The position numbers were made by a program, and so were the translations under genes. Shown one piece after another: positions 348 through 12,823 of a stretch of DNA of 42,817 nt. How positions within the stretch are numbered: the first letter of the stretch is position 1; each line of letters opens with the position of its first letter. The stretch is from an uncultured Bacteroidales bacterium. GTDB lineage: Bacteria; Bacteroidota; Bacteroidia; Bacteroidales; Bacteroidaceae. The notes under the pieces were generated by a model. The model was not told where the DNA came from. It did not search any database and was given only the letters and a program-made list of their open reading frames with translations. The stretch is taken from the NCBI GenBank assembly GCA_902779875.1, contig CACZCX010000028.1, positions 1 to 42,817 on the forward strand. The letters are read 5' to 3'.

Positions 348-1613
348 ATGATTAAAGACATTTTTGAGAGAATCAAAGAGACTCCGGGCCCGCTCGGACA
401 GTATCAGGGAATCGGCGACGGTTACTTCATGTTCCCCCGCCTGGTAGGTGAGATCGGCCCCGAGATGGAGTTCAACGGCAAGCCCGTGCTGAACTGGAGC
501 CTTAACAACTACCTGGGTCTGGCTAACCACCCCGAGGTAAGAAAGGCCGATGCCGAAGCAGCCGCCAAGTTTGGTCTCGGTGCTCCTATGGGTGCCCGCA
601 TGATGTCAGGTAATACTGATTATCACATCAAGTTTGAGAATGACTTCTCAGAGTTCGTAGGCAAGAAGGCAGGTCTCTGCCTCAACTTCGGTTATCAGGG
701 TATGATCTCAATCATCGACGTTCTGACCAGCCGCAAGGACGTTATCGTTTACGATTCTGAGTCACACGCCTGCATCCTGGACGGTATGCGTCTGAGCCTT
801 GCCAAGCGTTTCGCTTTCCAGCACAACAACATGGAGAGCCTGGAGAAGCAGCTCAACCACGCCTGCAAGCTGGCCGATGAGCAGGGCGGCGGCGTCCTGG
901 TTATCACCGAGGGTGTGTTCGGTATGGCCGGTGACCTGGGTCATCTCGCTGACATCGTAGAACTCAAGAAGAAATATCCGTTCCGCATACTGATTGACGA
1001 TGCACACGGTTTCGGTACCATGGGTGCCCACGGTCGCGGTACCGCCGAGCACTACGGCGTAATCGACGAGATCGATGTAATATTCGACGCTTTCGCCAAG
1101 AGTATGGCTTCAATCGGTGGTGTAGTAAGCTCAGAGCCTGAGATCATCGACCACCTCAAGTGCAACATGCGTTCACAGATCTACGCCAAGTCATTGCCTC
1201 TGCCTCTGGTTATCGGTAACCAGAAGCGTCTGGACCTGATCAAGGCTCACCCCGAGTACCGCGAGCATCTGTGGGAGGTTGTAAACGCTCTGCAGGGCGG
1301 CCTCAAGTCAGAGGGATTCAACATCGGCGTAACCGAGTCACCTGTAACACCCGTATTCTTTGAGGGTGGTATCAACGAGGGTACCAACGTTGTTGTTGAC
1401 CTGCGTGAGAACTACTCAATCGTTACATATCCCGTTATCCCCAAGGGCCAGCTCATGCTTCGTATCATTCCTACCGCTTCACATACTCTGGATCATGTTA
1501 AGCGTACCATCGAGGTATTCAAGGATGTACAGAAGAAGCTCAAGGCCGGTTACTATGAGGGCCCCATCCAGGATATGAACGTATTCAAGCGTGCTCAGAT
1601 AAAGAGAGGATGA
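348..1613 (+). CDS. Cysteate acyltransferase (alpha-oxoamine synthase, SulA/CFAT type)
   Basis: A 421-residue fold-type I PLP enzyme of the alpha-oxoamine synthase family, the family of serine palmitoyltransferase and KBL. Visible landmarks are the PLP-stacking His140 in DSESHAC, Asp217 in ILIDDAHG, and the Schiff-base Lys251 in FAKSMASIGG. The length is normal for the family. By itself it could be a serine palmitoyltransferase. The next gene, coupled by an ATGA overlap, is a cysteate-synthase-like enzyme, so the substrate is more likely L-cysteate, condensed with a fatty acyl thioester to 3-ketocapnine with loss of CO2. This is the committed step of sulfonolipid synthesis described in Alistipes and Chryseobacterium. 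The ATG at 348 precedes the conserved N-terminus, with no obvious ribosome binding site, which is common in Bacteroidetes. Family assignment is firm; substrate is inferred from context. Confidence 0.85.
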   Translation: MIKDIFERIKETPGPLGQYQGIGDGYFMFPRLVGEIGPEMEFNGKPVLNWSLNNYLGLANHPEVRKADAEAAAKFGLGAPMGARMMSGNTDYHIKFENDFSEFVGKKAGLCLNFGYQGMISIIDVLTSRKDVIVYDSESHACILDGMRLSLAKRFAFQHNNMESLEKQLNHACKLADEQGGGVLVITEGVFGMAGDLGHLADIVELKKKYPFRILIDDAHGFGTMGAHGRGTAEHYGVIDEIDVIFDAFAKSMASIGGVVSSEPEIIDHLKCNMRSQIYAKSLPLPLVIGNQKRLDLIKAHPEYREHLWEVVNALQGGLKSEGFNIGVTESPVTPVFFEGGINEGTNVVVDLRENYSIVTYPVIPKGQLMLRIIPTASHTLDHVKRTIEVFKDVQKKLKAGYYEGPIQDMNVFKRAQIKRG

Positions 1614-2833
1614 AATACCAGCTTGTCTGCAAGAAGTGCGGCAAGGTAATAGGAGATTTTGCCGCTTGGTTCAGCCAGGACCAGCTGTGTGAGTGCGGAA
1701 GCAATCACGCAGAGGTAGTCTATGACTCTGATTACCGCCAGCTGGACGAGCTCTGCAAACCCGGCCGGAAGGTAGACAACCTCTACCACTACCTGCCTTT
1801 CCTGCCTCTTGACGGGGCCGATGAGCAGGTAACCTGCGGCGAGGGCGCAGTACCTATCCAGGAGTGGGAATTCCTGAGCCGATACGCCAAGGACAATTAC
1901 GGCATAGACTGCAAGGTCGTAGTGGCCCGTAATGACCTGAACGGAGGCAGCGGCACTTTCAAGGATATTGCCGCATCACTGGCAGCAACGCTGTTCAAGA
2001 AACACGGTGTAAAGGAGTATTGCCTGGCATCGACCGGCAATGCAGCCACCGCATATGCAACATATCTGGCCAAGGCAGGCGTCAAGTTTGACGTATTCGC
2101 TCCGCACGATATGTATGAGGAGACCCAGCAGGCCATACGCGCCACCGGTCAGAACCTTCAGGTATCGGAGGGCGGATACGGTCAGGCCAAGGCCGAGGCT
2201 GCCGATTTCCACAAGAACCAGCACGTGATGATATCGGCCGGTAACATCGACCCCATCCGTGTGGAGGCCAAGAAGACGCTTGTATTCGAGTGCATGCGTC
2301 AGCTGGGCCGCATACCTGACGTTTATATGCAGGCTGTGGCAGGCGGCACAAGCCCCATCGCGTTCGAGAAAGGAATGCGTGAGATTGCCGATGCCTACCC
2401 CGAGTATAAGATGCCCCGCATGCTGCTGGTTCAGCAGGACACATGCGATCCTATGGTCCAGGCCTGGGAGTGGGCAATCGAGAACGGTTTCCCGCAGGGT
2501 TGGAACAAGCACTTCCCCACCGTGGTTCCGCAGACCAGGATATCAATCCTCACGGCAGGCACTCCCGGCATGTATCCGCTGGTAGGTCCTATCGTAAAGA
2601 ACAGCGGCGGATCGTTCATCCGTGTAAAGGAGGAGGGTCTGGAGCGTTACGGCCGTATGGTCAAGGACGCACAGGGCATATACATGGGACCTGCATCGGT
2701 CGTATGTATTGCCGGATTCTTCAAGGCACTTGAGGAGAACAAACTCAAGAGCGGTGACCTGATCCTGCTCAACACAGGTGAGGGCTGCGAGCGCGCCCTT
2801 TGGTTCAAACAAGCAATAGACAGCTGCAAATGA
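1610..2833 (+). CDS. Threonine synthase-like PLP enzyme, probable cysteate synthase
   Basis: A 407-residue fold-type II PLP enzyme related to threonine synthase. A small zinc-ribbon-like N-terminus carries CxxC (Cys7, Cys10) and CxC (Cys27, Cys29). The PLP lysine is Lys118 in GTFKDIAA, followed by a STGNAATAYA phosphate-binding loop. Archaeal cysteate synthase also evolved from threonine synthase and makes L-cysteate from O-phosphoserine and sulfite. The gene sits between an oxoamine synthase and a short-chain reductase with ATGA overlaps on both sides (1610-1613 and 2830-2833), so the three are co-translated. That arrangement favours cysteate supply for sulfonolipids over threonine synthesis. 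A true threonine synthase is the main alternative; no homoserine pathway gene lies nearby. Confidence 0.8.
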   Translation: MKYQLVCKKCGKVIGDFAAWFSQDQLCECGSNHAEVVYDSDYRQLDELCKPGRKVDNLYHYLPFLPLDGADEQVTCGEGAVPIQEWEFLSRYAKDNYGIDCKVVVARNDLNGGSGTFKDIAASLAATLFKKHGVKEYCLASTGNAATAYATYLAKAGVKFDVFAPHDMYEETQQAIRATGQNLQVSEGGYGQAKAEAADFHKNQHVMISAGNIDPIRVEAKKTLVFECMRQLGRIPDVYMQAVAGGTSPIAFEKGMREIADAYPEYKMPRMLLVQQDTCDPMVQAWEWAIENGFPQGWNKHFPTVVPQTRISILTAGTPGMYPLVGPIVKNSGGSFIRVKEEGLERYGRMVKDAQGIYMGPASVVCIAGFFKALEENKLKSGDLILLNTGEGCERALWFKQAIDSCK

Positions 2834-3630
2834 ATAAATTCGCCGACAAGGTAGTTTGGATAACAGGCTCATCATCAGGTATAGGTGAGGCGACCGCATA
2901 CGAGTTCGCACGCGAGGGTGCCAGGCTCATACTCACCGCGCTTGAGGCAGACCTTCTGGAAAAGGTTGCCGCACGCTGCAAGGAGTTGGGTGCTCCCGAT
3001 GCCCGTCCCCTGCCCTTTGACTTGTCCCGCAAGGATGAGGTTGCAGAGCTCGCCGAGCAGGCCTGGCAGGTTTACGGTTACATAGACGTGTTCTACAACA
3101 ACGCCGGCATAAGCCAGCGCGGAACCACCTGCGAGACCGAGATGAGGGTCATAAACAAGGTCATGGACATTAACTGGTTCGCACCCGTTATCATGACCAA
3201 GGTAATCCTGCCCAAGATGATTGAGCGCGGCGGCGGTCAGCTCATGGTCACCACCAGCATCAACGGAAGGTTCGGATTCCCCCTGCGCTGCGCCTACAGC
3301 TCATCCAAACACGCACTCTACGGATTCTTTGAGACCGTCCAGGCTGAGTACTACAAGGATAACATTCGCGTTACCATAGTATGCCCCGGACGTGTGCAGA
3401 CCCGCATATCGTTCTATGCCCTTGAAAAAGACGGGAAGCAGCATGCCAAGATGGATGCAGGACAGGCCGGAGGTTGCACTCCCGAACAGGCTGCCCGCAA
3501 GATAGTCCGTGCTGTATATAAGAAGAAGCGTGAGGTCCTGGTGGGACGCAAGGAACTGCTTATGGTTTACATAAAGCGTTTCTTCCCGGGACTCTGTGCA
3601 AGAATAGCCCGTAACATCGACCCAATGTAA
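2830..3630 (+). CDS. Short-chain dehydrogenase/reductase, probable 3-ketocapnine reductase
   Basis: A 266-residue classical SDR. The nucleotide-binding motif TGSSSGIG lies at residues 12-19, NNAG follows in the middle, and the catalytic set is Ser143, Tyr156 and Lys160 (YSSSK). It starts at the ATG inside the stop of the previous gene (ATGA overlap), and that start directly precedes the Rossmann motif. As third gene after an oxoamine synthase and a cysteate synthase-like enzyme it most likely reduces the 3-keto group of 3-ketocapnine to give capnine, as 3-ketosphinganine reductase does in sphingolipid synthesis. The N-acyltransferase and hydroxylases that complete sulfonolipids are not in the window. 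The SDR fold is certain; the substrate is inferred. Confidence 0.8.
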   Translation: MNKFADKVVWITGSSSGIGEATAYEFAREGARLILTALEADLLEKVAARCKELGAPDARPLPFDLSRKDEVAELAEQAWQVYGYIDVFYNNAGISQRGTTCETEMRVINKVMDINWFAPVIMTKVILPKMIERGGGQLMVTTSINGRFGFPLRCAYSSSKHALYGFFETVQAEYYKDNIRVTIVCPGRVQTRISFYALEKDGKQHAKMDAGQAGGCTPEQAARKIVRAVYKKKREVLVGRKELLMVYIKRFFPGLCARIARNIDPM

Positions 3631-3658: not shown

Positions 3659-5389
3659 ATGAAGAAAGAAATTAAGTTCAGCCTTGTTTACCGTGACATG
3701 TGGCAGTCATCGGGCAAGTATGTTCCCCGCAAGGACCAGCTCGCCAAGATTGCTCCGGTTATCATAGACATGGGCTGCTTTGACCGCGTTGAGACTAACG
3801 GCGGTGCCATGGAACAGGTAAACCTTCTGTACGGTGAGAATCCTAACCAGGCCGTACGCACATTTACCAAGCCCTTCAACGAAGTAGGAATCAAGACTCA
3901 CATGCTGGACCGCGGTCTTAACGCGCTGCGCATGAACCCCGTACCTGCCGATGTACGTCAGCTCATGTATAAGGTTAAGCACGCACAGGGTGTTGACATC
4001 ACACGTATTTTCTGCGGTCTGAATGACCCGCGTAACATTATCCCCTCAATCAAGTGGGCCAAGGAGGCAGGCATGACCGCTCAGGCTACCATGTGTATCA
4101 CCTACTCCAAGGTACACAATGCCGAGTACTACATAAACCTGGCCGAGCAGCTCATCGAGGGCGGCGCACAGGAGATCTGCCTCAAGGATATGGCCGGTAT
4201 CGGTCGTCCCGCTATGCTGGGCACCATCGTTCGCGCCATCAAGGAGAAACATCCCGATATCGTCATACAGTACCACGGCCACAACGGTCCCGGTTTTGCA
4301 GTAGCATCTATGCTTGAGGTTGCAAGAGCCGGTGCCGATGTCCTGGACGTAGCTATGGAGCCTCTGTCATGGGGTAAGGTTCATCCGGACGTAATCACCA
4401 TCCAGGCTATGCTTAAGGATGCCGGATTCCTGGTTAAGGATATCAACATGAAGGCATACATGGAGGCACGTTCACTCACTCAGAGCTTTATGGACGACTT
4501 CCTGGGCTACTGGATCGATCCCAAGAACTCAATCATGAGTTCACTGCTGGTAGGCTGCGGTCTGCCCGGCGGTATGATGGGTTCACTCATGGCTGACCTC
4601 AAGGGTATGCACGCTGCCATCAACGCCAACCTCCGCAAGAAGGGTGAGAAGGAGCTGTCTGAGGACGAGCTGCTTGTTGAGCTCTTTGTTACACCGTTCA
4701 GCCAGTACGTAAAGAATGCCGCCCTAATGAACCTCTACTCAAAGTCAATGGACGAGAAGCCCTTTACCCGTATGGATCCCGCCATGTGGGGTATGGTACT
4801 TGGCAAGTCAGGTAAACTGCCCGGTGAGCTGGCTCCCGAGATCATTCAGCTGGCCAAGGAGCAGGGTAAGGAGTTCTATACCGATGATCCTCAGGTTCTC
4901 TACCCCAACGACCTGCCCCGCTTCATCAAGGAGATGGAGGAGAACGGCTGGGACCGCGGCCAGGATGATGAGGAGCTCTTTGAGTTCGCCATGCACGAGA
5001 AGCAGTACCGCGAGTACAAGAGCGGAGCAGTACCGCGAGTACAAGAGCGGTCAGGCCAAGGATCAGTTCAACAAGGACCTTATGGAGCGTATGGAGAAGG
5101 CTCAGGCCGGCACCGCAGGTGCTCCTGTCAAGCACTTCACCGCTGCCGACAAGCGTGCCATCCTGCATCCCGATGCAGAGCCCATCGAGGCTGCTGTCAG
5201 CGGTCGCGTAATCTGGGATCTGGATTACATGGATCAGTCAACCAATCCTCCCTTCGGCAAGCAGTACAAGAAGGGCGACTGGATGGTCGGCATTCAGGCC
5301 AGCGGCAACACCTTCATCGACAACGCCACAGCTCCCTACGACTGCCATCTGGTATCGGTCGAGAAGGAGCACGGAGCACTCGTTTCTAA
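3659..5389 (+). CDS. Biotin-dependent carboxyltransferase, OadA / transcarboxylase 5S type (frameshifted)
   Basis: An HMGL-like TIM barrel plus PYC/OADA domain. This family moves CO2 between carboxybiotin and a keto acid (oxaloacetate/pyruvate). Lys176 in LKDMAG is the expected carbamylated metal ligand, and His206 and His208 (HGH) are metal ligands. The usual RDxxQS motif reads RDMWQSS. The reading frame breaks at a perfect 25-bp tandem duplication (5001-5050). Beyond it, this frame is low-complexity arginine-rich sequence to 5389, while the true C-terminus continues in another frame to 5420. Removing one copy restores 578 residues. It starts 28 bases after the SDR stop and may be co-transcribed with it. 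The lost C-terminal domain resembles a biotinyl domain without the biotin lysine, so a carrier in trans would be needed. Confidence 0.8.
   Translation: MKKEIKFSLVYRDMWQSSGKYVPRKDQLAKIAPVIIDMGCFDRVETNGGAMEQVNLLYGENPNQAVRTFTKPFNEVGIKTHMLDRGLNALRMNPVPADVRQLMYKVKHAQGVDITRIFCGLNDPRNIIPSIKWAKEAGMTAQATMCITYSKVHNAEYYINLAEQLIEGGAQEICLKDMAGIGRPAMLGTIVRAIKEKHPDIVIQYHGHNGPGFAVASMLEVARAGADVLDVAMEPLSWGKVHPDVITIQAMLKDAGFLVKDINMKAYMEARSLTQSFMDDFLGYWIDPKNSIMSSLLVGCGLPGGMMGSLMADLKGMHAAINANLRKKGEKELSEDELLVELFVTPFSQYVKNAALMNLYSKSMDEKPFTRMDPAMWGMVLGKSGKLPGELAPEIIQLAKEQGKEFYTDDPQVLYPNDLPRFIKEMEENGWDRGQDDEELFEFAMHEKQYREYKSGAVPRVQERSGQGSVQQGPYGAYGEGSGRHRRCSCQALHRCRQACHPASRCRAHRGCCQRSRNLGSGLHGSVNQSSLRQAVQEGRLDGRHSGQRQHLHRQRHSSLRLPSGIGREGARSTRF
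5001..5050 (+). repeat. Perfect 25-bp tandem duplication causing a frameshift
   Basis: Bases 5001-5025 and 5026-5050 are identical, and the flanking bases differ, so the unit is exactly 25 bp. Because 25 is not a multiple of 3, the second copy shifts the carboxyltransferase frame by one. The peptide QYREYKSG is encoded in both frames, once per copy, which identifies the duplication as the cause. It may be real slippage, a phase-variable site or an assembly error. Confidence 0.9.
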
Positions 5390-5420
5390 GGGTGAGGTGA
5401 TCGGCTGGATCGAAAAATAA
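5051..5420 (+). pseudogene. Displaced 3' part of the 5S-like carboxyltransferase (degenerate biotinyl-like domain)
   Basis: This frame continues the protein starting at 3659 after the 25-bp duplication: QAKDQFNKDL and onward to the stop at 5418-5420. The last 60 or so residues look like a barrel-sandwich hybrid (biotinyl/lipoyl) domain: ATAPYDCHLVSVEKEHGALV then SKGEVIGWIEK. Where biotin domains have AMKM, this one reads GNTF, so the biotin-accepting lysine is absent. The domain could be a structural or docking relic. It has no start of its own. Confidence 0.7.
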
Positions 5421-5551
5421 TTGAGAATTGAAAATTGAGAATTGAGAATTGTAAAAAAGGTTCGGAATTTTTCCGAACCTTTTTTAATGTCGCGGGAATT
5501 AACGCAGGTGCGTGTAATTCTCAATTCTCAATTCTCAATTCTCAATTCGAA
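5421..5551. repeat. Heptanucleotide inverted repeat element (copy A1) around a terminator
   Basis: Tandem units of ATTGAGA fill 5421-5451, and the reverse complement (TCTCAAT units) fills 5517-5549. Between them lie a terminator hairpin and an ACGCAGGTGCGT motif at 5502-5513. The element occupies the whole gap between two convergent genes. It also encodes the last residues and stop of the Hdr gene on the minus strand (IEN, stop). A second copy lies at 29252-29410. Every 7-base unit contains TGA, so three units give stops in all three frames. Confidence 0.75.
5453..5485. terminator. Bidirectional intrinsic terminator
   Basis: A perfect 15-bp stem (5453-5467 with 5471-5485) with a 3-base loop. 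The stem has a GGTTCGGAA core and is flanked by six A on the left and six T on the right, so it can stop transcription from either side. It separates the carboxyltransferase from the convergent Hdr-like operon. Confidence 0.85.
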
Positions 5552-6563
5552 TGGTATCCAGGTAGTCCTTGATAGCATTCGCCGCAGAGCGGGCGTCGTT
5601 GATGGAGTCGCTCACGCTCATGGGGCGCTTGCAGGTGCCGGCGGCGAACAGGCCGGGCTTGCCGGTCTCGTTGTCGTAGAGGTGGGGGTTGACGGTGCGG
5701 ATAAAGCCGTAGTCACCGCTTATGTCACATGACTTGCCCAGTGCCTTGGTGCCGCATGATGCCTCCATGCCTACCATAAGTACCAGCAGGTCTGTGGTCA
5801 TCTTGAGCGGAAGGCCCATCAGGGTATCCTCACTCTTGAGCTGGACACGTCCGTCAAAGGTGGCGGCAGCCTCCGATATACGGCCGCGGACAAAACTTAC
5901 GCCGTATCTCTCCTGGGCGGTGCGGTACATCTCCTCAAATCCCTGGCCCCACATACGCAGGTCCATATAGAATACCGATGCCTCACACTTGGGCAGATGC
6001 TTGCGGACCTCGATGGCCTGCTTGACGGCTGTCACGCAGCAGATCTTGGAGCAGTAGTGGTTGCCGCTCTTCTCGTCACGGGAGCCCACGCACTGCAGGA
6101 ATGTGATACGCTTGGGTTCATCGCCGTTGGCGTTCAGGATCTTGCCGTGCTTGATCATCTGCTCCATATCGAGCGATGTGATTACACCTTTATATATACC
6201 GTAGCCGAGTTCCTCCTTGCGGTGGGCGTCAAACACCTGATAACCGGTGGCCAGCAGCACTGCATCGGCCACATATGTCTGTTCCTTGGAATCAACCAGT
6301 TTCCATTCCGTTCCCTGCCACTTGACATCGGCTATGTCAATACCAAAGGCCGATGTAATACCGTCAGTGAGCAGCTTGCCGCTCAGGTCATCAACGATCT
6401 CCTGCGCGTTCTGGAAGTTAGGAAACAGGAATGCCTTGTCCTGGAGGTTCTTGAGCGGAGTCTCCGATTTCTCAAAAAGGGTGACCTCAACACCGTTCCT
6501 GGCCAGTATTGATGCAGCCTCTATACCGGCGGGGCCGGCTCCTATGATTGCAACTTTCTTCAT
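5535..6563 (-). CDS. Short HdrA-like FAD/iron-sulfur protein
   Basis: A 342-residue flavoprotein related to heterodisulfide reductase subunit A and QmoA. The N-terminus has the Rossmann motif GAGPAGIEAA. Around residues 155-176 lie CVGSRD and YCSKICC, the cysteine-rich signature of HdrA/QmoA. The C-terminus has GLFAAGTCKRP, typical of the last FAD contact. It is about half the length of methanogen HdrA and lacks the extra ferredoxin domains. The ATG at 6563 is chosen over an upstream TTG. It is the last gene of the operon, 6 bases after hdrB. It probably passes electrons between a soluble donor and the other Hdr subunits; partners are unknown. Its stop lies inside the repeat element. Confidence 0.8.
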   Translation of the reverse strand: MKKVAIIGAGPAGIEAASILARNGVEVTLFEKSETPLKNLQDKAFLFPNFQNAQEIVDDLSGKLLTDGITSAFGIDIADVKWQGTEWKLVDSKEQTYVADAVLLATGYQVFDAHRKEELGYGIYKGVITSLDMEQMIKHGKILNANGDEPKRITFLQCVGSRDEKSGNHYCSKICCVTAVKQAIEVRKHLPKCEASVFYMDLRMWGQGFEEMYRTAQERYGVSFVRGRISEAAATFDGRVQLKSEDTLMGLPLKMTTDLLVLMVGMEASCGTKALGKSCDISGDYGFIRTVNPHLYDNETGKPGLFAAGTCKRPMSVSDSINDARSAANAIKDYLDTIRIEN

Positions 6564-6569
6564 AATCAA

Positions 6570-7625
6570 TTACACTAAAAGGTTCTCCGGTTTCTCCGGG
6601 GCACGCAGTATCTTACCGTCGGCCGATTTGTATTTGTCTTTTGGATTATAAGGTATACCTATCTTGTCAAGAAGACGCTCTGCCTGCACCTGATGTATCT
6701 GAAGGCCCAGTTCCCACGGGTCATAACCCAGCAGCAGTCCGGCCATCTCCTCATAGGTAAGAACCGGAATACCGTAGCCCTCACGGTCATAGGTCTTATG
6801 TTCCATCTCAGCTATGGTATACTGCCAACGGTCCAGGAACATGGAGCATCCCGGGCAGTTGGATACTATGAAATCAGGCTCATAAGGCTCCATGGACTCC
6901 AGTTTCTTCTTGGTGTTGGAGACTGAGTAGCCACGGTTCTCCTGAACCAGATACTGACGGAATCCGAATCCGCAGCAGTGACGGCGCTCGGGATAGTCAA
7001 CCACCTCACCGCCCCAGGCCTCAATCATACCGGCCAGTACATACGGGAACTCCGCCTTGCCCACACCCTTGTCAGGGAATATCTTGGCATAATGGCAGCC
7101 GATATGCTCAACTACCTTGAGGGGTTTACCCGTAAAGCGGTTCACCAGACGGTATTTCATCTTCTCGGCAAGCTCAAAGCGGAAATGATATATCACGTCC
7201 GATGGATGGGCGATGTTCTTGGGTAGATTGAATTCACGCTTGCATGCCTTATACAGGTTCTCACGTGTTTTCTCCAGCAGGTCGGGACGCTCCTGCCACG
7301 TATGTACCATCTCAGTGAATACTCCGAACGATGTTACGCATGAGGGCACGTAGTTCTCATAGCCGTGCTCGGTCATAAGCGAGAACAGACGGGCTACGAC
7401 GGTCATGGTTGTCTCCAAGGGTACCACGTCAGTATGATAACCTATACCGGTACAGGTGTGCTGACGGAAATCATCAAAGATATCCTTGTCCAACTCCTCC
7501 CTGAGCATGCGCAGGAACGCGGTCTCTGATCCGGGGAAGAAGGTCTGACGGATACAACTACGCTCGTAGAAGTAGTGGTCATCAGCTATTGTTTTCTGAT
7601 ACTCGTTCCAAAAACGGTTTGCCAT
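6570..7625 (-). CDS. HdrB-like CCG-domain protein
   Basis: A 351-residue protein with two cysteine-rich CCG-type regions. The first is scattered (HTCTGIG, PSCVTSF). The second is clear: EHIGCHYAK, CCGFGFRQ and NCPGCSMF. HdrB uses these cysteines to hold the noncubane [4Fe-4S] clusters that cleave disulfides. It is somewhat longer than typical HdrB, with an N-terminal extension and a C-terminal tail. It sits between the membrane Hdr fusion (7 bases upstream) and HdrA, the order expected of a complex. The substrate cannot be told; methanogen cofactors are not expected in this order of bacteria. Confidence 0.75.
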   Translation of the reverse strand: MANRFWNEYQKTIADDHYFYERSCIRQTFFPGSETAFLRMLREELDKDIFDDFRQHTCTGIGYHTDVVPLETTMTVVARLFSLMTEHGYENYVPSCVTSFGVFTEMVHTWQERPDLLEKTRENLYKACKREFNLPKNIAHPSDVIYHFRFELAEKMKYRLVNRFTGKPLKVVEHIGCHYAKIFPDKGVGKAEFPYVLAGMIEAWGGEVVDYPERRHCCGFGFRQYLVQENRGYSVSNTKKKLESMEPYEPDFIVSNCPGCSMFLDRWQYTIAEMEHKTYDREGYGIPVLTYEEMAGLLLGYDPWELGLQIHQVQAERLLDKIGIPYNPKDKYKSADGKILRAPEKPENLLV

Positions 7626-7632
7626 AGTTCAA

Positions 7633-9588
7633 TCAGTTTATCAGGTTTTCTGCCACAATCTCTGCAATATCCTTGACCGGATAATCATTTGTGGCATGCT
7701 GGAACGCCTTCTTACACATGGGGCATGCGGTGGCGATGGCATCGACCGGCTTGCTTGTCAGGTTGGCAAGTGATGCGTTCCTAATCTTGGTCTGCTCATC
7801 AATGCTGAGTTTGGTGTTTCCCAGATTGAATCCGCAGCACACACTCTTTTCACGCTGGTAGCGTGTTTTCTGCAAGTTGGTCACGGCACTCAGGACACTG
7901 CGCGGCTCCTCATAGATACCGCATCCACGACCCAGCTCACAGGGATCATGATATGACACCTTGCGGTCATCGTGACGAACCTTGACACGACCCTGTTTGA
8001 TGAGCATATCGATATACTCGGTATGGTGCATTACAGGTATCTTAAGGTCATACTCCTTGGTGAATGACTGATAGCAGATGGGGCATGATGTGACAAGCAT
8101 CGTGGCTCCCGATTTCTCTATCATGTCAGTATTCTTTTTGCGCAACTCTGCCGCCTGATTCATGAATCCCTGCTGCTGCAGAGGACGTCCGCAGCAAACG
8201 GTGCTCAACTTGTCCATATACCAGTATTTCTGGTCAGCGGCATTGAATATCTTCTCCATGGACTCGGTTATACCGGGAGTAAGATGTGACATACAACCGC
8301 CAAAATAAGCTACACGTCCTATGGCGTTGAACGGATTCTGTTTACCTGCCAGATAGGTGTAGTTGCCGGTGGTATCGATGGCTCCCTTGTCACGGCTCAT
8401 GCGACGTATCGCGCTCAGGTCTATACCGACAGGACAGTCAACCGTGCATCGGTCACACATAAGGCAGTTATCGGCAATAATATTGATGCGGCTGGCACGC
8501 TCCTGGTTGCGGATGCTACGGATAAGATATACAGACTGTATATCATGGTTCTCAAGCACCTTGTCCATGGGGCAGCCCGATATGCACACACCGCAACGTG
8601 AGCAGGCGTTGAGTTCAAAGTAGGTGTAGCCGGTTTTCTGTTTTTCCTCCCTCACCCCTATCTTACGGAAGTATATTAGCATGAGCTCCGTGAAGATATG
8701 CATGTAACGGGTGAACGGCATGGTCACGAAGAATACCCCCAGCATGAGTGAGTAGAACATCCAGAGCGATGTCTCCAGACCGCGCACGATCATGGGATCA
8801 AACAGGTTTCCTACTGCCTGAGTAAAGAATCCGCCGTTGCCGTACAGACATGCCGTAACAGACTCGGCAAGCAGACGCAACGGGAATATCATCCAGAGCG
8901 AGAACTTGGAGAATCTGTCTACGATGGTATGTTTGGTGGTACGGCGCATGCCCAGTACCTTGGACCAGAATATCTTGATGATGGCCATGGTCAGGCCCAG
9001 GAACACATAGAGCAGCAGGGCATCCATCAGGTTGGCATATGCATGATGCTGACGGAACGAAGTCGGTGCCTTATGTACGAAATAACGGTAGAAAATACTT
9101 ACGTAGAAAGGCTTGTGGTAATGAATACGGGCTATTCCGTCCTCAGTCTCCACGCGGTAACGGCGCTGATTCAGGTACTCCGGGTCCTTGTTCTCACCGG
9201 TATTGTATATATACCATCCGTTCTGACCATCCAGCTCGTGGAGCGTCTCAATGGACTGCTCGTGCTGCATGGTAAAGAATGCGTCACGGCTCTCAATAGC
9301 TCCCACCAGTATGAGCAGGAACCATCCTAAGGCATACGCCTGATGCATTATTCCAAGCAGAAGGTTTTTCTTGAGTATACGTACATGGAGCAGGCCCTCG
9401 CGTATCATCTCCCAGATGGCGGGGATTATCTTCCATGAATACCAGTTCTTCCTTATTGTCTTGCGCTGCTCCGGGCTGAACTTCTTTATCCAGCGTACAT
9501 ATTTGCATATGATGATGGAGAACAGCAGTATGGTTCCGATAAGGAACGGAATCACAAAGTCATTATATGGATAAGCGTGAATCTTCAT
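7633..9588 (-). CDS. Membrane-anchored HdrD/DsrK-like protein (DsrM-DsrK type fusion)
   Basis: A 651-residue fusion. The first ~310 residues carry about five hydrophobic helices (for example near residues 10-30, 80-100, 190-215 and 270-290) with histidines such as MHQAY and RYMHIF that could bind heme, like NarI/DsrM/HdrE. Two [4Fe-4S] motifs follow, CSRCGVCISGCP near residue 330 and CLMCDRCTVDCP near 375, then CCG-type cysteine clusters (CCGRP near 466, CPICYQ near 503, CCGFNLG near 586, CPMCKK near 624). It therefore joins a quinone-linked membrane part to a DsrK/HdrD-like catalytic part. It probably exchanges electrons with menaquinone. It lies in the middle of the operon between the ferredoxins and HdrB. 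Confidence 0.8.
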   Translation of the reverse strand: MKIHAYPYNDFVIPFLIGTILLFSIIICKYVRWIKKFSPEQRKTIRKNWYSWKIIPAIWEMIREGLLHVRILKKNLLLGIMHQAYALGWFLLILVGAIESRDAFFTMQHEQSIETLHELDGQNGWYIYNTGENKDPEYLNQRRYRVETEDGIARIHYHKPFYVSIFYRYFVHKAPTSFRQHHAYANLMDALLLYVFLGLTMAIIKIFWSKVLGMRRTTKHTIVDRFSKFSLWMIFPLRLLAESVTACLYGNGGFFTQAVGNLFDPMIVRGLETSLWMFYSLMLGVFFVTMPFTRYMHIFTELMLIYFRKIGVREEKQKTGYTYFELNACSRCGVCISGCPMDKVLENHDIQSVYLIRSIRNQERASRINIIADNCLMCDRCTVDCPVGIDLSAIRRMSRDKGAIDTTGNYTYLAGKQNPFNAIGRVAYFGGCMSHLTPGITESMEKIFNAADQKYWYMDKLSTVCCGRPLQQQGFMNQAAELRKKNTDMIEKSGATMLVTSCPICYQSFTKEYDLKIPVMHHTEYIDMLIKQGRVKVRHDDRKVSYHDPCELGRGCGIYEEPRSVLSAVTNLQKTRYQREKSVCCGFNLGNTKLSIDEQTKIRNASLANLTSKPVDAIATACPMCKKAFQHATNDYPVKDIAEIVAENLIN

Positions 9589-9593
9589 CTCTC

Positions 9594-9926
9594 CTACTCC
9601 TTTTCATCAAGTATCTGACGCATGTTGATAATGAGTGAGCGCAGATTTACCCCACGCGGACAAACCAGTGTGCATTTACCGCACAGCATACATTTCTTGA
9701 GAGCCTCATCCAGTCCCTCATAATCACCACGACGGAACGACGTGTGTATGCGGCGTATGCTGAAATCCGTGAACTGACGGGCCGAGCATGTGGCACTGCA
9801 GCATCCGCATTGGAAACAGCGCTTGAATGAGGGTACGCGCTCCTGCAGTTTGTTGAACCGCTCAAGCGATACGCTGTCCATGTTCTCTGAACGTGGAGTC
9901 TTTATGGCAAATCCGAATTTAATCAT
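9594..9926 (-). CDS. Small HdrC-like ferredoxin
   Basis: A 110-residue protein with two [4Fe-4S] motifs, CFQCGCCSATCS and CMLCGKCTLVCPRG, spaced as in HdrC. It overlaps the stop of the upstream HdrC-like gene by 8 bases and ends 5 bases before the membrane fusion gene. It is the second HdrC-type protein in the operon. The short length suggests a soluble electron carrier domain docking on HdrB or on the membrane subunit. Confidence 0.8.
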   Translation of the reverse strand: MIKFGFAIKTPRSENMDSVSLERFNKLQERVPSFKRCFQCGCCSATCSARQFTDFSIRRIHTSFRRGDYEGLDEALKKCMLCGKCTLVCPRGVNLRSLIINMRQILDEKE

Positions 9927-10536
9927 TTTGCGGTCCGTTTATGATAGCGTCATGGAAATCCATACCTCCTGTCACGCGGAATATATTGCGCAGTTCCTCC
10001 ATGGTCTCAGGAGTGATGGTGCGGAGTGCACCGGCACCCTCACCGTGATAGTTGGCGCCGAACTTGGGCGATACAGCCTTGATGTTCTTGACATACCACT
10101 CCCAGACGGGGCCCTGCTCAGGATGTTTATCAGGATATACCTTGTCCGGATGGACGCAGTAACCTATCTCAAGGATATTGTTGCCGATGCCTTTCATCAG
10201 ATCCACCTGCTGGCGTCCCATGTGGCTCTCCTTGTAGTAGCCCATCTCCTGTGATACCTTACGCAGTATGTTGATGACGGCGCCCGGAACATTGCCGCGC
10301 GGGCAACGGGGCTTGCATGACATACACTGTCCGCAGTACCAGATGGTATCGGAACGGAGCAGTTTCTCCACCTGCTCCTCATCACCACGCTGCACCGTAT
10401 CACAGATACGACGGGGGTCGTAGTCATAAAACTCTGCAGCCGGGCATATGGCGGTACAGATACCGCAGTTCATGCAGGCCTTGAGAGACTCCTCGTACCT
10501 TACATCGGACTTGATTATATCAATAAGATTTCCCAT
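9919..10536 (-). CDS. HdrC-like iron-sulfur protein
   Basis: A 205-residue protein with two [4Fe-4S] motifs, CMNCGICTAICPA near residue 20 and CGQCMSCKPRCPRG near residue 70, in the arrangement of HdrC/QmoC N-termini. The C-terminal 100 residues have no recognised motif and no membrane helices. The ATG at 10536 is preferred over an upstream TTG because it precedes the conserved region closely. It is the first iron-sulfur gene of the operon, after the VOC gene, and likely works with the neighbouring smaller HdrC-like protein. Confidence 0.8.
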   Translation of the reverse strand: MGNLIDIIKSDVRYEESLKACMNCGICTAICPAAEFYDYDPRRICDTVQRGDEEQVEKLLRSDTIWYCGQCMSCKPRCPRGNVPGAVINILRKVSQEMGYYKESHMGRQQVDLMKGIGNNILEIGYCVHPDKVYPDKHPEQGPVWEWYVKNIKAVSPKFGANYHGEGAGALRTITPETMEELRNIFRVTGGMDFHDAIINGPQND

Positions 10537-10551
10537 AAGCAAAGGAGGGGG

Positions 10552-11625
10552 TTAGAATTTCTTGCGATTCATCTTCATGGCGCGGAAAAGCAGCTTGCAG
10601 AGGGGTTTCTCGCGCTTACGGTTAAGAAGGTTTATGTACCAGCCCAGTTTCTTGGCTACCGATATGCGGTAGGTCTCCACGAACTCGATCAGCGTGCCGT
10701 CGGGGTCCTCGATATAGGTGAAACGGCCCGATGCGTCACCCATGTTGAATACCTTGCCGTCGGGGCAGCTGTCAACAGTGAACGGATGGCCGTTCTTTTT
10801 GCACCATTTGGCCAGGTTATCCATGCCGGTCACGTCAAAGCATATCTGGATGAATCCGGGATCACCCCAATAACGGCCCTCGAATATCTTGCGGGGCTCA
10901 CGGTCATTGCACTTGACCAGTTCAATCGATCCGCTGGGGAATATGGGTGAGAATGCGCCGCTGTTGGGTTTGGACCACTTGAGCAGCACCCTGCGGTAGT
11001 TGCCGTCGCCACCTACGAGCGGGCTAAGGTCATCAAAGCTGCCGGTCTCGTCAAATACGACCTTGTCATAACCCAGTATGTCAGAGTAGACCTTGCGGGC
11101 CTTTTCAATATCACTTACGCCGACCATGCAGCCTATCATTCCGCCGAACTCCTTACCCTCGTCAAGCAGCAGGTAATCATCCTGTACGGCCTGGAACCAG
11201 TTGCCCTCGGGGTCGGTTATGTAGAATGTCTTGCTGCCGTCAGGAGCGGTCACGATGGGGCTTACCTTGTCCCAACGCTCTGAGGCGTACTTGTGTGCAC
11301 TCTCGGTATTACGGCACTTGACCTTGGCGCAGAATATGCCCAGATCACCAACCTGAACCTGGAAATCCACGGGTTTGGGTTTGCGCTCCGAGTACTGCCA
11401 TATCTCGAATCCGCCTCCACCCTGAAGGTTTATGGCGATAGCTGCATGTCTTTTCTGGGCCTTTCCACCGGTATAGGGCAGCATACGCTCGGCTACGGTG
11501 TCATCCTCAAGGACGCGTATGTCAACTCCGAACATCTTTATGAACCATTTCCATGAGTCATAGACCGATGTGGTTCCTACTCCTATCTGCTGTATTCCGG
11601 TAATGAAGAAATCTGCTGTGTTCAT
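10552..11625 (-). CDS. Two-domain VOC (glyoxalase/dioxygenase superfamily) protein
   Basis: A 357-residue protein with two vicinal-oxygen-chelate modules, residues ~8-150 (ending in ITDPEGNWFQAV) and ~165-315 (GCMVGVSDIEKARKVYSDIL to IEDPDGTLIEFVE). A basic C-terminal tail of about 35 residues ends RKKF. The overall plan resembles extradiol dioxygenase or HPPD-like proteins, but the usual first metal histidine of each module is not obvious. It leads the Hdr-like operon, 15 bases before HdrC, with a good promoter upstream. It may bind the small molecule on which the Hdr complex acts, or may be regulatory. Function unknown. Confidence 0.7.
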   Translation of the reverse strand: MNTADFFITGIQQIGVGTTSVYDSWKWFIKMFGVDIRVLEDDTVAERMLPYTGGKAQKRHAAIAINLQGGGGFEIWQYSERKPKPVDFQVQVGDLGIFCAKVKCRNTESAHKYASERWDKVSPIVTAPDGSKTFYITDPEGNWFQAVQDDYLLLDEGKEFGGMIGCMVGVSDIEKARKVYSDILGYDKVVFDETGSFDDLSPLVGGDGNYRRVLLKWSKPNSGAFSPIFPSGSIELVKCNDREPRKIFEGRYWGDPGFIQICFDVTGMDNLAKWCKKNGHPFTVDSCPDGKVFNMGDASGRFTYIEDPDGTLIEFVETYRISVAKKLGWYINLLNRKREKPLCKLLFRAMKMNRKKF

Positions 11626-11687: not shown

Positions 11688-11800
11688 TCCCGACGCTTGC
11701 CAAAAAAGGCCTCCGGCAAAAAAAACGAACCACATTCCTGCATATTCCGCAAGATATGATTACTTTCGCGTATCACATACATTACAAAAAGCCAAACGCG

Positions 11801-12025
11801 ATGAAACTTTATCCGCTTATTCTCGGACTTGGAACCGGTGAGGTAATCCTCATAGCATTGATCATCCTGCTCCTTTTCGGCGCAGCACGTATTCCCGCCC
11901 TCATGAAAAGCATGGGTAAGGGTGTCAAGAGCTTCAAGGAGGGCATGAAAGAGGTCGAGAAGGAGATAAACGCTCCCGACGAGCCCGCCAAGCCCCAGCA
12001 GGATTCAGACAAGAATCAGGAGTAA
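11801..12025 (+). CDS. tatA: Twin-arginine translocase subunit TatA
   Basis: A 74-residue protein with a single N-terminal membrane helix (GEVILIALIILLLF) followed by the amphipathic segment GAARIPALMKSMGKGVKSFK and an acidic, charged tail. This is the TatA/TatB plan; FG-x-x-x-IP-x-L is the family signature. It would form the pore-like assembly that exports folded proteins. The ATG at 11801 is used because upstream in-frame codons fall in the AT-rich promoter region. It is followed 15 bases later by tatC. No other Tat gene is present, so TatA may serve for TatB as well. No exported protein in this window shows a twin-arginine signal. Confidence 0.9.
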   Translation: MKLYPLILGLGTGEVILIALIILLLFGAARIPALMKSMGKGVKSFKEGMKEVEKEINAPDEPAKPQQDSDKNQE

Positions 12026-12040
12026 ACCGTTCATACAGTC

Positions 12041-12823
12041 ATGGCTGCCCACAAGGACGAACCCATGACATTCTGGGATCACCTGGATGCTCTCAGGGAT
12101 GTCATTCTGCGCATCCTCGCCGTCGCTCTGGTAGGGTTCATTGCCGCATTTGCCCTCAAGGAGCCTCTGTTCAGGCTTATCCTGGCACCCAGCACCCCCG
12201 ATTTCATACTTTACCGATGGATCACCGCTGCCGCCGGTTCCATGGGGATCGATGCATCCGCGCTGCAGGACTTCCAGGTGGACCTTTTCAGCACCACCCT
12301 CACGGCCCAGTTCATGATTCACATGAAGATGGCCTTCTACATAAGCATGGTGGCCATTCTGCCCTACTCGCTCTATCTCATATTCGGATTCGTGGCACCT
12401 GCACTGCATGAGAACGAGAAACGCAGCTCGACCAAGGTCGTGGTCTGGTCTTACATACTGTTCATGACGGGCATAGTCCTGAACTACCTCATCATTTTCC
12501 CGCTCGCGTTCCGTTTCCTGGGCACCTACCAGGTGAGCGACGCCATTCCCAACATCATTACGCTGGAGTCTTACACTGACCTGCTCATTACCCTGACCCT
12601 GCTTATGGGCATACTCTTTGAGCTCCCCATCCTGGCGTGGTTCCTGGGCAGACTTGGCGTAATCGACTCGGCATTCATGAAAAAATACCGCCGCCATGCC
12701 ATTGTCGTGATAATGATCATAGCGGCGGTAATAACTCCGACTACCGATGTCTTTACGCTTACTATCGTTACGCTCCCAATCTACCTCCTATACGAGGTAA
12801 GCATAATGATAGTCCGCAAATAA
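12041..12823 (+). CDS. tatC: Twin-arginine translocase subunit TatC
   Basis: A 260-residue polytopic inner membrane protein with about six helices. It has the N-terminal signature FWDHLDALRDVI and, after the third helix, APALHENEKR, which matches the conserved glutamate segment of TatC that contacts twin-arginine signal peptides. It is coupled to tatA. It ends one base before the stop of the convergent glycosidase gene, with no terminator visible between them, so read-through antisense RNA across the glycosidase is possible. Confidence 0.92.
   Translation: MAAHKDEPMTFWDHLDALRDVILRILAVALVGFIAAFALKEPLFRLILAPSTPDFILYRWITAAAGSMGIDASALQDFQVDLFSTTLTAQFMIHMKMAFYISMVAILPYSLYLIFGFVAPALHENEKRSSTKVVVWSYILFMTGIVLNYLIIFPLAFRFLGTYQVSDAIPNIITLESYTDLLITLTLLMGILFELPILAWFLGRLGVIDSAFMKKYRRHAIVVIMIIAAVITPTTDVFTLTIVTLPIYLLYEVSIMIVRK

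Follow-up and report, generated by a model that had tools for sequence, protein, structure and literature searches.

A membrane-anchored, sHdr-like gene block tied to sulfonolipid genes in Bacteroidales and its possible role in sulfite supply

What does a heterodisulfide reductase (Hdr)-like gene set do in an anaerobe when it fits no named complex exactly? The question is raised by contig CACZCX010000028.1 (assembly GCA_902779875.1) of an uncultured Bacteroidales bacterium of the family Bacteroidaceae, analysed here over 42,817 nucleotides (the window). An earlier note, made from this DNA alone, had described six genes of one direction at 5535..11625 (a double vicinal-oxygen-chelate protein, two HdrC, a DsrM-DsrK-like fusion, HdrB and a short HdrA) as a membrane, quinone-linked set whose first product may handle its substrate. 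All six open reading frames (ORFs) are present on the minus strand in that order, and their families agree with the description. The proposed extent proved too narrow, since the plus-strand sulfonolipid genes at 348-3630, which suggest a role for the block, had been overlooked; the functional unit reaches past the six genes to include them. As judged from sequence, the link of the Hdr block to SulA and cysteate synthase is strong and well supported, both genetically and phyletically. We favour, with moderate confidence, the reading that the block encodes a membrane-anchored sHdr-like complex supplying sulfite for sulfonolipid synthesis in an anaerobe. The genes concerned are:

348..1613, plus strand: SulA/CapB cysteate acyl transferase, committed step of sulfonolipid synthesis; scores to 7u7h and 28eh, marker lysine
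1610..2833, plus strand: cysteate-synthase-like (CS-like) pyridoxal-phosphate (PLP) enzyme, assigned by context; 113 bits to TIGR03844, cut-off 325
2830..3630, plus strand: SDR, probable 3-ketocapnine reductase (CapC-like); PRK06181 above its cut-off
5535..6569, minus strand: HdrA, short form, 344 aa; FAD domain (pyridine-nucleotide type) with one [4Fe-4S] motif, HdrA match
6570..7625, minus strand: HdrB, 351 aa; one complete CCG site and a reduced N-terminal site
7633..9588, minus strand: membrane subunit (the fusion), 651 aa; five-helix cytochrome-b-like domain, Fer4 pair and two complete CCG motifs (HdrED/DsrMK/EtfD type)
9594..9926, minus strand: HdrC2, short, 110 aa; two [4Fe-4S] motifs
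9919..10542, minus strand: HdrC1, 207 aa; two [4Fe-4S] motifs, HdrC families
10552..11625, minus strand: VOC2, double vicinal-oxygen-chelate protein, 357 aa; Pfam glyoxalase

Sulfonolipid genes beside the Hdr block

The product of the gene at 348-1613 scores 588 bits against 7u7h and 527 bits against 28eh (named cysteate-C-fatty acyltransferase, CFAT), versus 242 bits against serine palmitoyltransferase (SPT). A lysine lies 30 residues past its PLP lysine, matching the Lys251/Lys281 spacing in SulA. 7u7h is SulA of Alistipes finegoldii, and Lys281 is described as marking SulA enzymes in PMC9304779. Being closest to SulA/CFAT and not to SPT, and having the diagnostic lysine, the gene is by its sequence SulA/CapB, which makes the neighbourhood of the block one of sulfonolipid synthesis. 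Compared with 7u7h, the source SulA is shorter by four residues at a single site near the C-terminal part; SulA of another genome, G547, scores 651 bits against 7u7h, with clear differences. According to PMC10191378, the sulfonolipid route leads from cysteate to 3-ketocapnine and capnine, and Alistipes and Odoribacter use an archaeal-type cysteate synthase. The likeness of the locus to the capnine/sulfonolipid pathway (CapA/CapB/CapC; Alistipes SulA) consists in SulA/CapB, the cysteate-synthase-like enzyme and the SDR beside the block.

A first scan of species genomes gave 36 related loci, on which the gene-order counts are based. All are titled Bacteroidetes-group metagenome-assembled genomes or uncultured isolates, and the animals named in the titles are ruminants or horse. 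Since the order VOC2-HdrC1-HdrC2-fusion-HdrB-HdrA is complete in 27 of these loci, the block is not a chance arrangement and exists as a conserved unit in other genomes. Its two halves can separate: the L034 locus has VOC2-HdrC1-HdrC2-fusion together but yielded neither HdrB nor HdrA, and L078 has HdrB-HdrA away from the fusion. A second Bacteroidales subfamily of the block has the order HdrC1-HdrB-HdrA-HdrC2-fusion, with HdrA and HdrC2 adjacent. The source genome (2.14 Mb, 74 contigs, 86.5% complete) contains a single match to the fusion gene. At E 1e-60, a draw of 296 genomes across the phylum gave no fusion match except the source genome, an indication that few members of other orders have the fusion; within Bacteroidales only the source genome and two of its family were shown, and the draw has little information on this order. 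A second HdrC1-HdrB pair occurs in genome G576 (L060, 9129-10900); neither HdrA nor HdrC2 nor a membrane subunit was found in that stretch.

Clustering of ORFs from the first-scan loci reveals that the window genes at 348-3630 travel with the Hdr block. In three loci (L024, L025 and L027) all genes form one single-strand run, SulA-CS-like-SDR-VOC2-HdrC1-HdrC2-fusion-HdrB-HdrA. L028 displays the same nine-gene order with the SDR reading as two pieces, and in L026 HdrB was not found in the 1.4 kb remaining behind the fusion. Blocks of the second order are arranged as SulA-CS-HdrC1-HdrB-HdrA-HdrC2-fusion in L046 and L037 (followed by SDR and VOC2 in L037) and as VOC2-SulA-SDR-HdrC1-HdrB-HdrA-HdrC2-fusion-cysteate synthase in L074; in L048 the fusion is followed by SulA. 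Altogether, at least one of SulA, a CS-type gene and the SDR lies in the stretch of 28 of the 60 distinct Hdr loci. The only neighbour families of at least 90 aa that recur in at least four of 32 Hdr stretches (30 distinct) are SulA, SDR, VOC2 and two cysteate-synthase types. L059 repeats L024 and L047 repeats L037, so linkage counts refer to distinct loci, and alignment and neighbour counts may hold both duplicates.

The second of these cysteate-synthase types is a PALP-protein gene directly following the fusion in L061, L065, L074, L075 and L076. Against TIGR03844 (archaeal-type cysteate synthase, cut-off 324.9 bits) the L074 protein scores 430 bits and the L065 protein 409 bits, and those of L061, L075 and L076 are 55-77% identical to that of L074. 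The window-type CS gene is missing from seven genus members, and four of these (G311, G319, G323 and G329) are the genomes that contain L065, L074, L075 and L076. There, one type of cysteate synthase seems to substitute for the other, which supports the assignment of the gene at 1610-2833. In L061 (13618-16651, single-contig genome G576) the block and the cysteate-synthase relative are followed by a SulP-family permease; CysD and CysH were not found in G576.

Sulfite supply across genomes

Cysteate for sulfonolipids requires sulfite; in work of Liu et al. from 2022, cysteate synthase is said to use sulfite and O-phosphoserine. Distribution of the genes was examined in 101 relatives, 37 genomes of the source genus and 64 from outside it. 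The fusion was found in 47, HdrB in 47, VOC2 in 51, the CS-like gene in 36 and SulA in 62. Hdr occurs in 11 of the 64 non-genus genomes, 10 of them with SulA, and VOC2 in 15, 13 with SulA (the exceptions are G376 and G390); VOC2 is present in all six that have a CS-like gene.

In an even draw of 334 Bacteroidales, for which the genome counts of SulA and CysD are complete, HdrB was detected in 106 genomes, SulA in 235 and both in 99 (Fisher p 1.6e-11). Genomes with Hdr belong to 52 families, 51 of which hold a genome with both Hdr and SulA. Because the genomes are related, this p-value is a guide only, and the physical linkages are the stronger evidence.

CysD was present in 216 of the 334 genomes. 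The 235 genomes with SulA divide into 63 with Hdr and CysD, 36 with Hdr only, 108 with CysD only and 28 with neither; the corresponding numbers for the 99 genomes lacking SulA are 5, 2, 40 and 52. CysH was searched for in 80 genomes (14 genomes without Hdr and CysD were dropped by eye, and 6 more such were left out). Among 35 genomes with Hdr and SulA but no CysD, the source genome aside, three have CysH over the cut-off, one has a partial match below it and 31 have none. Since neither CysD nor CysH is matched in these 31, they need another source of sulfite. They include four genomes rated 100% complete (G362, G434, G468, G537) and two single-contig genomes (G547, G576). The source genome likewise has no CysD and no CysH match. 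In its genus, 31 of the 37 genomes lack CysD, and 30 of these have both Hdr and SulA (G298 has neither). None of the 31 has CysH over the cut-off; G301 has a 66-bit match.

Loci L066-L073, in which cysD is close to SulA or CS, were chosen by eye for this closeness and do not form a random sample. Six of them contain, in this order, SulA (divergent), VOC2, cysH, cysD and cysN; in L070 one ORF separates SulA from VOC2. After cysN comes a DASS-type transporter in five, and in L072 the contig ends in cysN. Behind the transporter lie cysQ and a CS-like gene in L066 and L070; cysQ stands behind an SDR in L071 and is a fragment at the contig end in L068. The gene that ends the L066 run VOC2-cysH-cysD-cysN-transporter-cysQ is a 42% homologue of the window CS-like gene, and CysH of this locus scores above the cut-off for adenylylsulfate (APS) reductase. 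Of the six genomes, G519 (L066) has both systems; the other five gave no Hdr match. In two further picked loci, L069 and L073, cysD is beside a CS-like gene.

These arrangements bear on VOC2. The suggestion that it handles the substrate of the Hdr proteins is rejected, since VOC2 stands between SulA and cysH-cysD-cysN in the six loci and is found without any Hdr match in 8 of the 64 non-genus genomes. Its linkage to the block was borne out in 32 of the 36 first-scan loci (of the other four, L017 and L033 start at or inside the fusion gene, and L019 and L032 show none in the available stretch), but among 24 more distant distinct Hdr loci outside that scan VOC2 is mostly unlinked, being present in two. 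VOC2 belongs with the sulfonolipid genes rather than with Hdr, and it probably acts as a metal-dependent enzyme in the lipid branch, regardless of how the sulfite is produced. The Pfam glyoxalase domain marks only its C-terminal half; the double domain is visible in the AlphaFold model (pLDDT 90.3). The nearest PDB folds (GLOD4, Bacillus glyoxalase-family proteins and 2,6-dichloro-p-hydroquinone dioxygenase 4huz) are general VOC relatives, and a sequence search of the PDB gave no match at E 0.1. Residues Q12, Q13, E74, E235 and E314 are invariant in 22 sequences, with Q or H at 260.

Protein anatomy and comparison with known systems

Cofactor ligands of the block are well kept. In HdrC1, C23, C26, C29, C33 and C70, C73, C76, C80 are invariant in 58 rows of the alignment (two of them duplicates), as are all eight ligand cysteines of HdrC2 in 59 rows. 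The membrane subunit has invariant H68, H82 and H297 and keeps its 18 Fe-S cysteines at 98-100%, both in 58 rows. Its model (pLDDT 85.5) has an N-terminal half with five long helices, of which hydropathy marks four as strongly hydrophobic, and its best PDB fold is Mycobacterium smegmatis EtfD (9ojn, E 2.5e-20). The earlier note was right in regarding the set as membrane-bound and probably quinone-linked. HdrB has one complete CCG site (C177, C217, C218, C257, C260). Its N-terminal site is reduced in 58 rows to C24, C58 and C96, three of the five canonical cysteines as taken from alignments with 9sfi and 5odc. The [4Fe-4S] motif of HdrA consists of C160, C173, C177 and C178, and residues 3-331 align end to end (175 bits) to residues 1-334 of the 349-aa 6tjr, which we take to be the HdrA-like protein of Hyphomicrobium denitrificans. 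HdrC1 and HdrA probably start at in-frame ATG codons two codons downstream of the listed ends, at 10536 and 6563.

It holds true that no named complex fits exactly, but by its gene order and its short HdrA the set resembles the sulfur-oxidising heterodisulfide-reductase-like (sHdr) clusters more closely than the earlier note allowed. In published descriptions, sHdr genes are ordered hdrC1-B1-A-hyp-C2-B2 (PMC6067878, PMC11582611), and the syntenic core of type I is shdrC1-B1-A-H-C2-B2 (PMC11582611). The second subfamily, HdrC1-HdrB-HdrA-HdrC2 followed by the membrane B2-like subunit, has this order minus hyp/H. HdrA of the block is short, lacks the extra domains of methanogen HdrA and aligns with 6tjr over its length; sulfite, as suggested by the context, would be a common product. 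On the other hand, the H gene is missing between HdrA and HdrC2 in the second subfamily, the window order HdrC1-HdrC2-fusion-HdrB-HdrA departs from the type I core, and the B2 position is held by a membrane cytochrome-b fusion. No LbpA (GcvH-like) gene was detected: with two GcvH-type queries (E 1e-3), neither the window nor any of 62 Hdr stretches, 60 of them distinct, gave a relative. The apparent role of the block also differs, being biosynthetic and in anaerobic gut bacteria. Type II clusters (C1-B1-A-H-B3 with EtfAB, B3 being a C2-B2 fusion) are unlike the block in that its HdrC2 is a separate gene; nor was EtfAB seen, as the stretches contain no relative of ygcQ and no further recurrent family. 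Searches with this one Etf-type query, CysI, CysJ, CysD and CysH found nothing in the 62 stretches or the window.

The closest HdrB outside Bacteroidota found in this analysis is encoded on a plasmid of Picosynechococcus sp. PCC 7003 (L084, 7065-12805). There, HdrC1, HdrB, HdrA, HdrC2 and B2 stand in second-subfamily order and are followed by a sulfide:quinone reductase-like flavoprotein, which resembles type III enzymes at 83 bits, below the cut-off. Identities to the source proteins amount to 42.6% (HdrB), 39% (HdrA) and 45% (HdrC1), and HdrB has the same reduced N-terminal site. Unlike the fusion, B2 of this block has 290 aa and no membrane domain. We know of no described function for it. 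Further matches from the plasmid collection were to HdrA in Ilyobacter and to HdrB in Acidithiobacillus. One of the Acidithiobacillus HdrB-like proteins (L085, 8749-10089) also has a reduced N-terminal cluster site; its gene is surrounded by hemerythrin, GcvH-like and hcp genes, and neither HdrA nor HdrC is annotated next to it.

With DsrMK, HdrDE and EtfD the membrane subunit shares a heme-b-type domain, Fer4 pair and two CCG motifs; it differs as a single chain partnered with an HdrABC-like soluble set, and its NCBIfam scores for DsrK, TfrB and TmcB are all below cut-off. EtfD combines a membrane domain with an Fe-S/CCG fold and receives electrons from the electron-transfer flavoprotein (ETF); the fold matches 9ojn, and no relative of ygcQ is found beside the block. 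DsrMKJOP has separate DsrM and DsrK along with DsrJ, DsrO and DsrP, whereas the block has one fused gene (DsrK 61.8 bits, cut-off 400) and no further recurrent neighbour family. Qmo comprises two HdrA-like subunits (one with MvhD) and QmoC, an HdrC-HdrE fusion, and is encoded beside aprBA; the block has one short HdrA and a QmoC score of 49.6 bits against 300 (aprBA was not searched for). The block shows likeness to methanogen HdrABC in HdrB (104 bits) and in the C-terminal part of HdrA (197 bits), but NCBIfam scores fall far short (HdrB 142 against 450, HdrC 88 against 350, HdrA2 228 against 1100), the source HdrA is without the extra domains, and the source HdrB is without two of the five N-terminal cluster cysteines. 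Qmo, DsrMKJOP, methanogen HdrABC and sHdr types I and II were thus each rejected as the identity of the block, a defining feature being absent in every case.

Some further features surround the block. A biotin-dependent carboxylase-like gene (3659-5420) has 576 aa in frame, against 593-594 aa in most relatives; a 25-base tandem duplication at about 5001-5051, either an assembly error or real, shifts its frame, and the biotin domain goes on in another frame. Between this gene and hdrA (5420-5550) lies a terminator-like stretch flanked by a short repeated AATTGAGAATTG-type sequence. Upstream of VOC2, tatA and tatC (11756-12823) are divergent; tatC was found in 21 loci of the first scan including the window, and its position beside the block is probably inherited gene order.

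Proposed function and its alternatives

In the proposed scheme, HdrB, with its one complete and one reduced CCG site, would take sulfane sulfur that derives from sulfide and is bound to a protein or thiol, and oxidise it to sulfite. Electrons would pass through HdrA (FAD), HdrC1 and HdrC2 to the HdrD-like part of the membrane subunit, whose heme-b domain would deliver them to menaquinone. The cysteate-synthase-like enzyme would make cysteate from O-phosphoserine and sulfite, SulA would condense it with acyl-ACP (acyl carrier protein), and the SDR would reduce 3-ketocapnine to capnine. Both the direction of the reaction and the sulfur donor are inferred here. The standard potentials are about -0.12 V for sulfite/sulfide, about -0.07 V for menaquinone and -0.32 V for NAD, so a quinone acceptor fits the energetics better than NAD. 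Production of sulfite would account both for the pairing of the block with cysteate synthase and for its occurrence in genomes that lack CysD and CysH. The narrower proposal, a quinone-linked anaerobic sulfide-to-sulfite oxidase for biosynthesis that replaces sulfate assimilation (CysHDN) where this is missing in gut Bacteroidales, seems to us evenly balanced between right and wrong.

Several observations weigh against this scheme. Seven genomes have Hdr without SulA. There is no strict either/or between the two sulfite routes, since 63 of the 99 genomes with Hdr and SulA have CysD too, and the negative association of Hdr and CysD is modest (odds ratio 0.45, p 0.011, in genomes that are not independent). 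Conversely, 28 of the 235 genomes with SulA have neither Hdr nor CysD, and of eight tested three have CysH and five have none. G376 (L064, L073) has the Hdr block, VOC2 and a cysH-cysD-cysN-CS run, yet no SulA match; its cysteate may serve something else. The window CS-like gene scores below the cut-off of TIGR03844, and 32 of the 60 distinct Hdr loci have no sulfonolipid gene in their stretch (some of which are ended by contig ends), many second-subfamily blocks being alone. The known sulfur carrier of sHdr was not seen nearby, as E. coli GcvH, TusA, TusB, TusC and TusD queries (E 1e-3) gave no relative in the 62 Hdr stretches or the 42.8-kb window. Finally, methanogen HdrA scores 197 bits over the C-terminal part only, as high as the 175 bits of 6tjr over all.

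Sulfite could also arise reductively, if menaquinol-driven cleavage of thiosulfate or of an S-sulfonate released it (plus sulfide) for cysteate synthase. Such a reaction would account for all of the context, CCG proteins are best known as disulfide reductases, and an anion permease of the SulP family follows the block and cysteate synthase in L061. We nevertheless consider it unlikely: the SulP gene is not a recurrent neighbour, the short HdrA and second-subfamily gene order match the oxidative sHdr, and thiosulfate cleavage (about -0.4 V) is strongly uphill from menaquinol and would need proton motive force.

Tight linkage to SulA and SDR would equally suit a block acting on the lipid or on a cofactor of its synthesis, for example in reduction or desaturation of the capnine chain, and not on inorganic sulfur; Hdr modules can drive C=C reductions. 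This we think improbable, for it explains neither the direct pairing with cysteate synthase nor the block in SulA-containing genomes that lack CysD and CysH. Slightly more doubtful still is a respiratory thiol/disulfide or ETF:quinone module, close to what the earlier note proposed, for which the lipid-gene link would be secondary. The solitary second-subfamily blocks, the 63 genomes with Hdr and CysD and the EtfD-like fold of the membrane subunit would agree with it; co-occurrence with SulA in 99 of 106 genomes, spread over 51 families, and several different physical linkages would not. In a Qmo-like role, the block would hand electrons from quinol to an APS reductase of the dissimilatory type (AprAB, together with Sat) encoded at another place in the genome. 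This would again yield sulfite, and Qmo shares HdrA, HdrC and membrane subunits, but the single short HdrA-like subunit, a best QmoC score of 49.6 bits against 300 and the lack of any further gene family recurring beside the block (no search was made for AprAB or Sat) make this the faintest prospect.

Among the open-licence papers listed as matches, none joins heterodisulfide reductase with sulfonolipid, capnine or sulfobacin, and titles and opening abstract lines in further listings give no such description either; this is not proof of novelty. In three sulfonolipid papers the word sulfite does not occur, and the source of sulfite in anaerobes without sulfate assimilation therefore looks open. 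Sulfonolipids are bioactive bacterial lipids (sulfobacins; RIF-1). If the block makes sulfite, one complex would explain their formation in many Bacteroidales, with sulfite made without oxygen and without sulfate reduction. A known kind of enzyme would then gain a new use, with sHdr chemistry reaching beyond energy metabolism into biosynthesis. Since the single-contig genomes G547 and G576 have the block and SulA, with no CysD or CysH found, cultivable hosts may exist.

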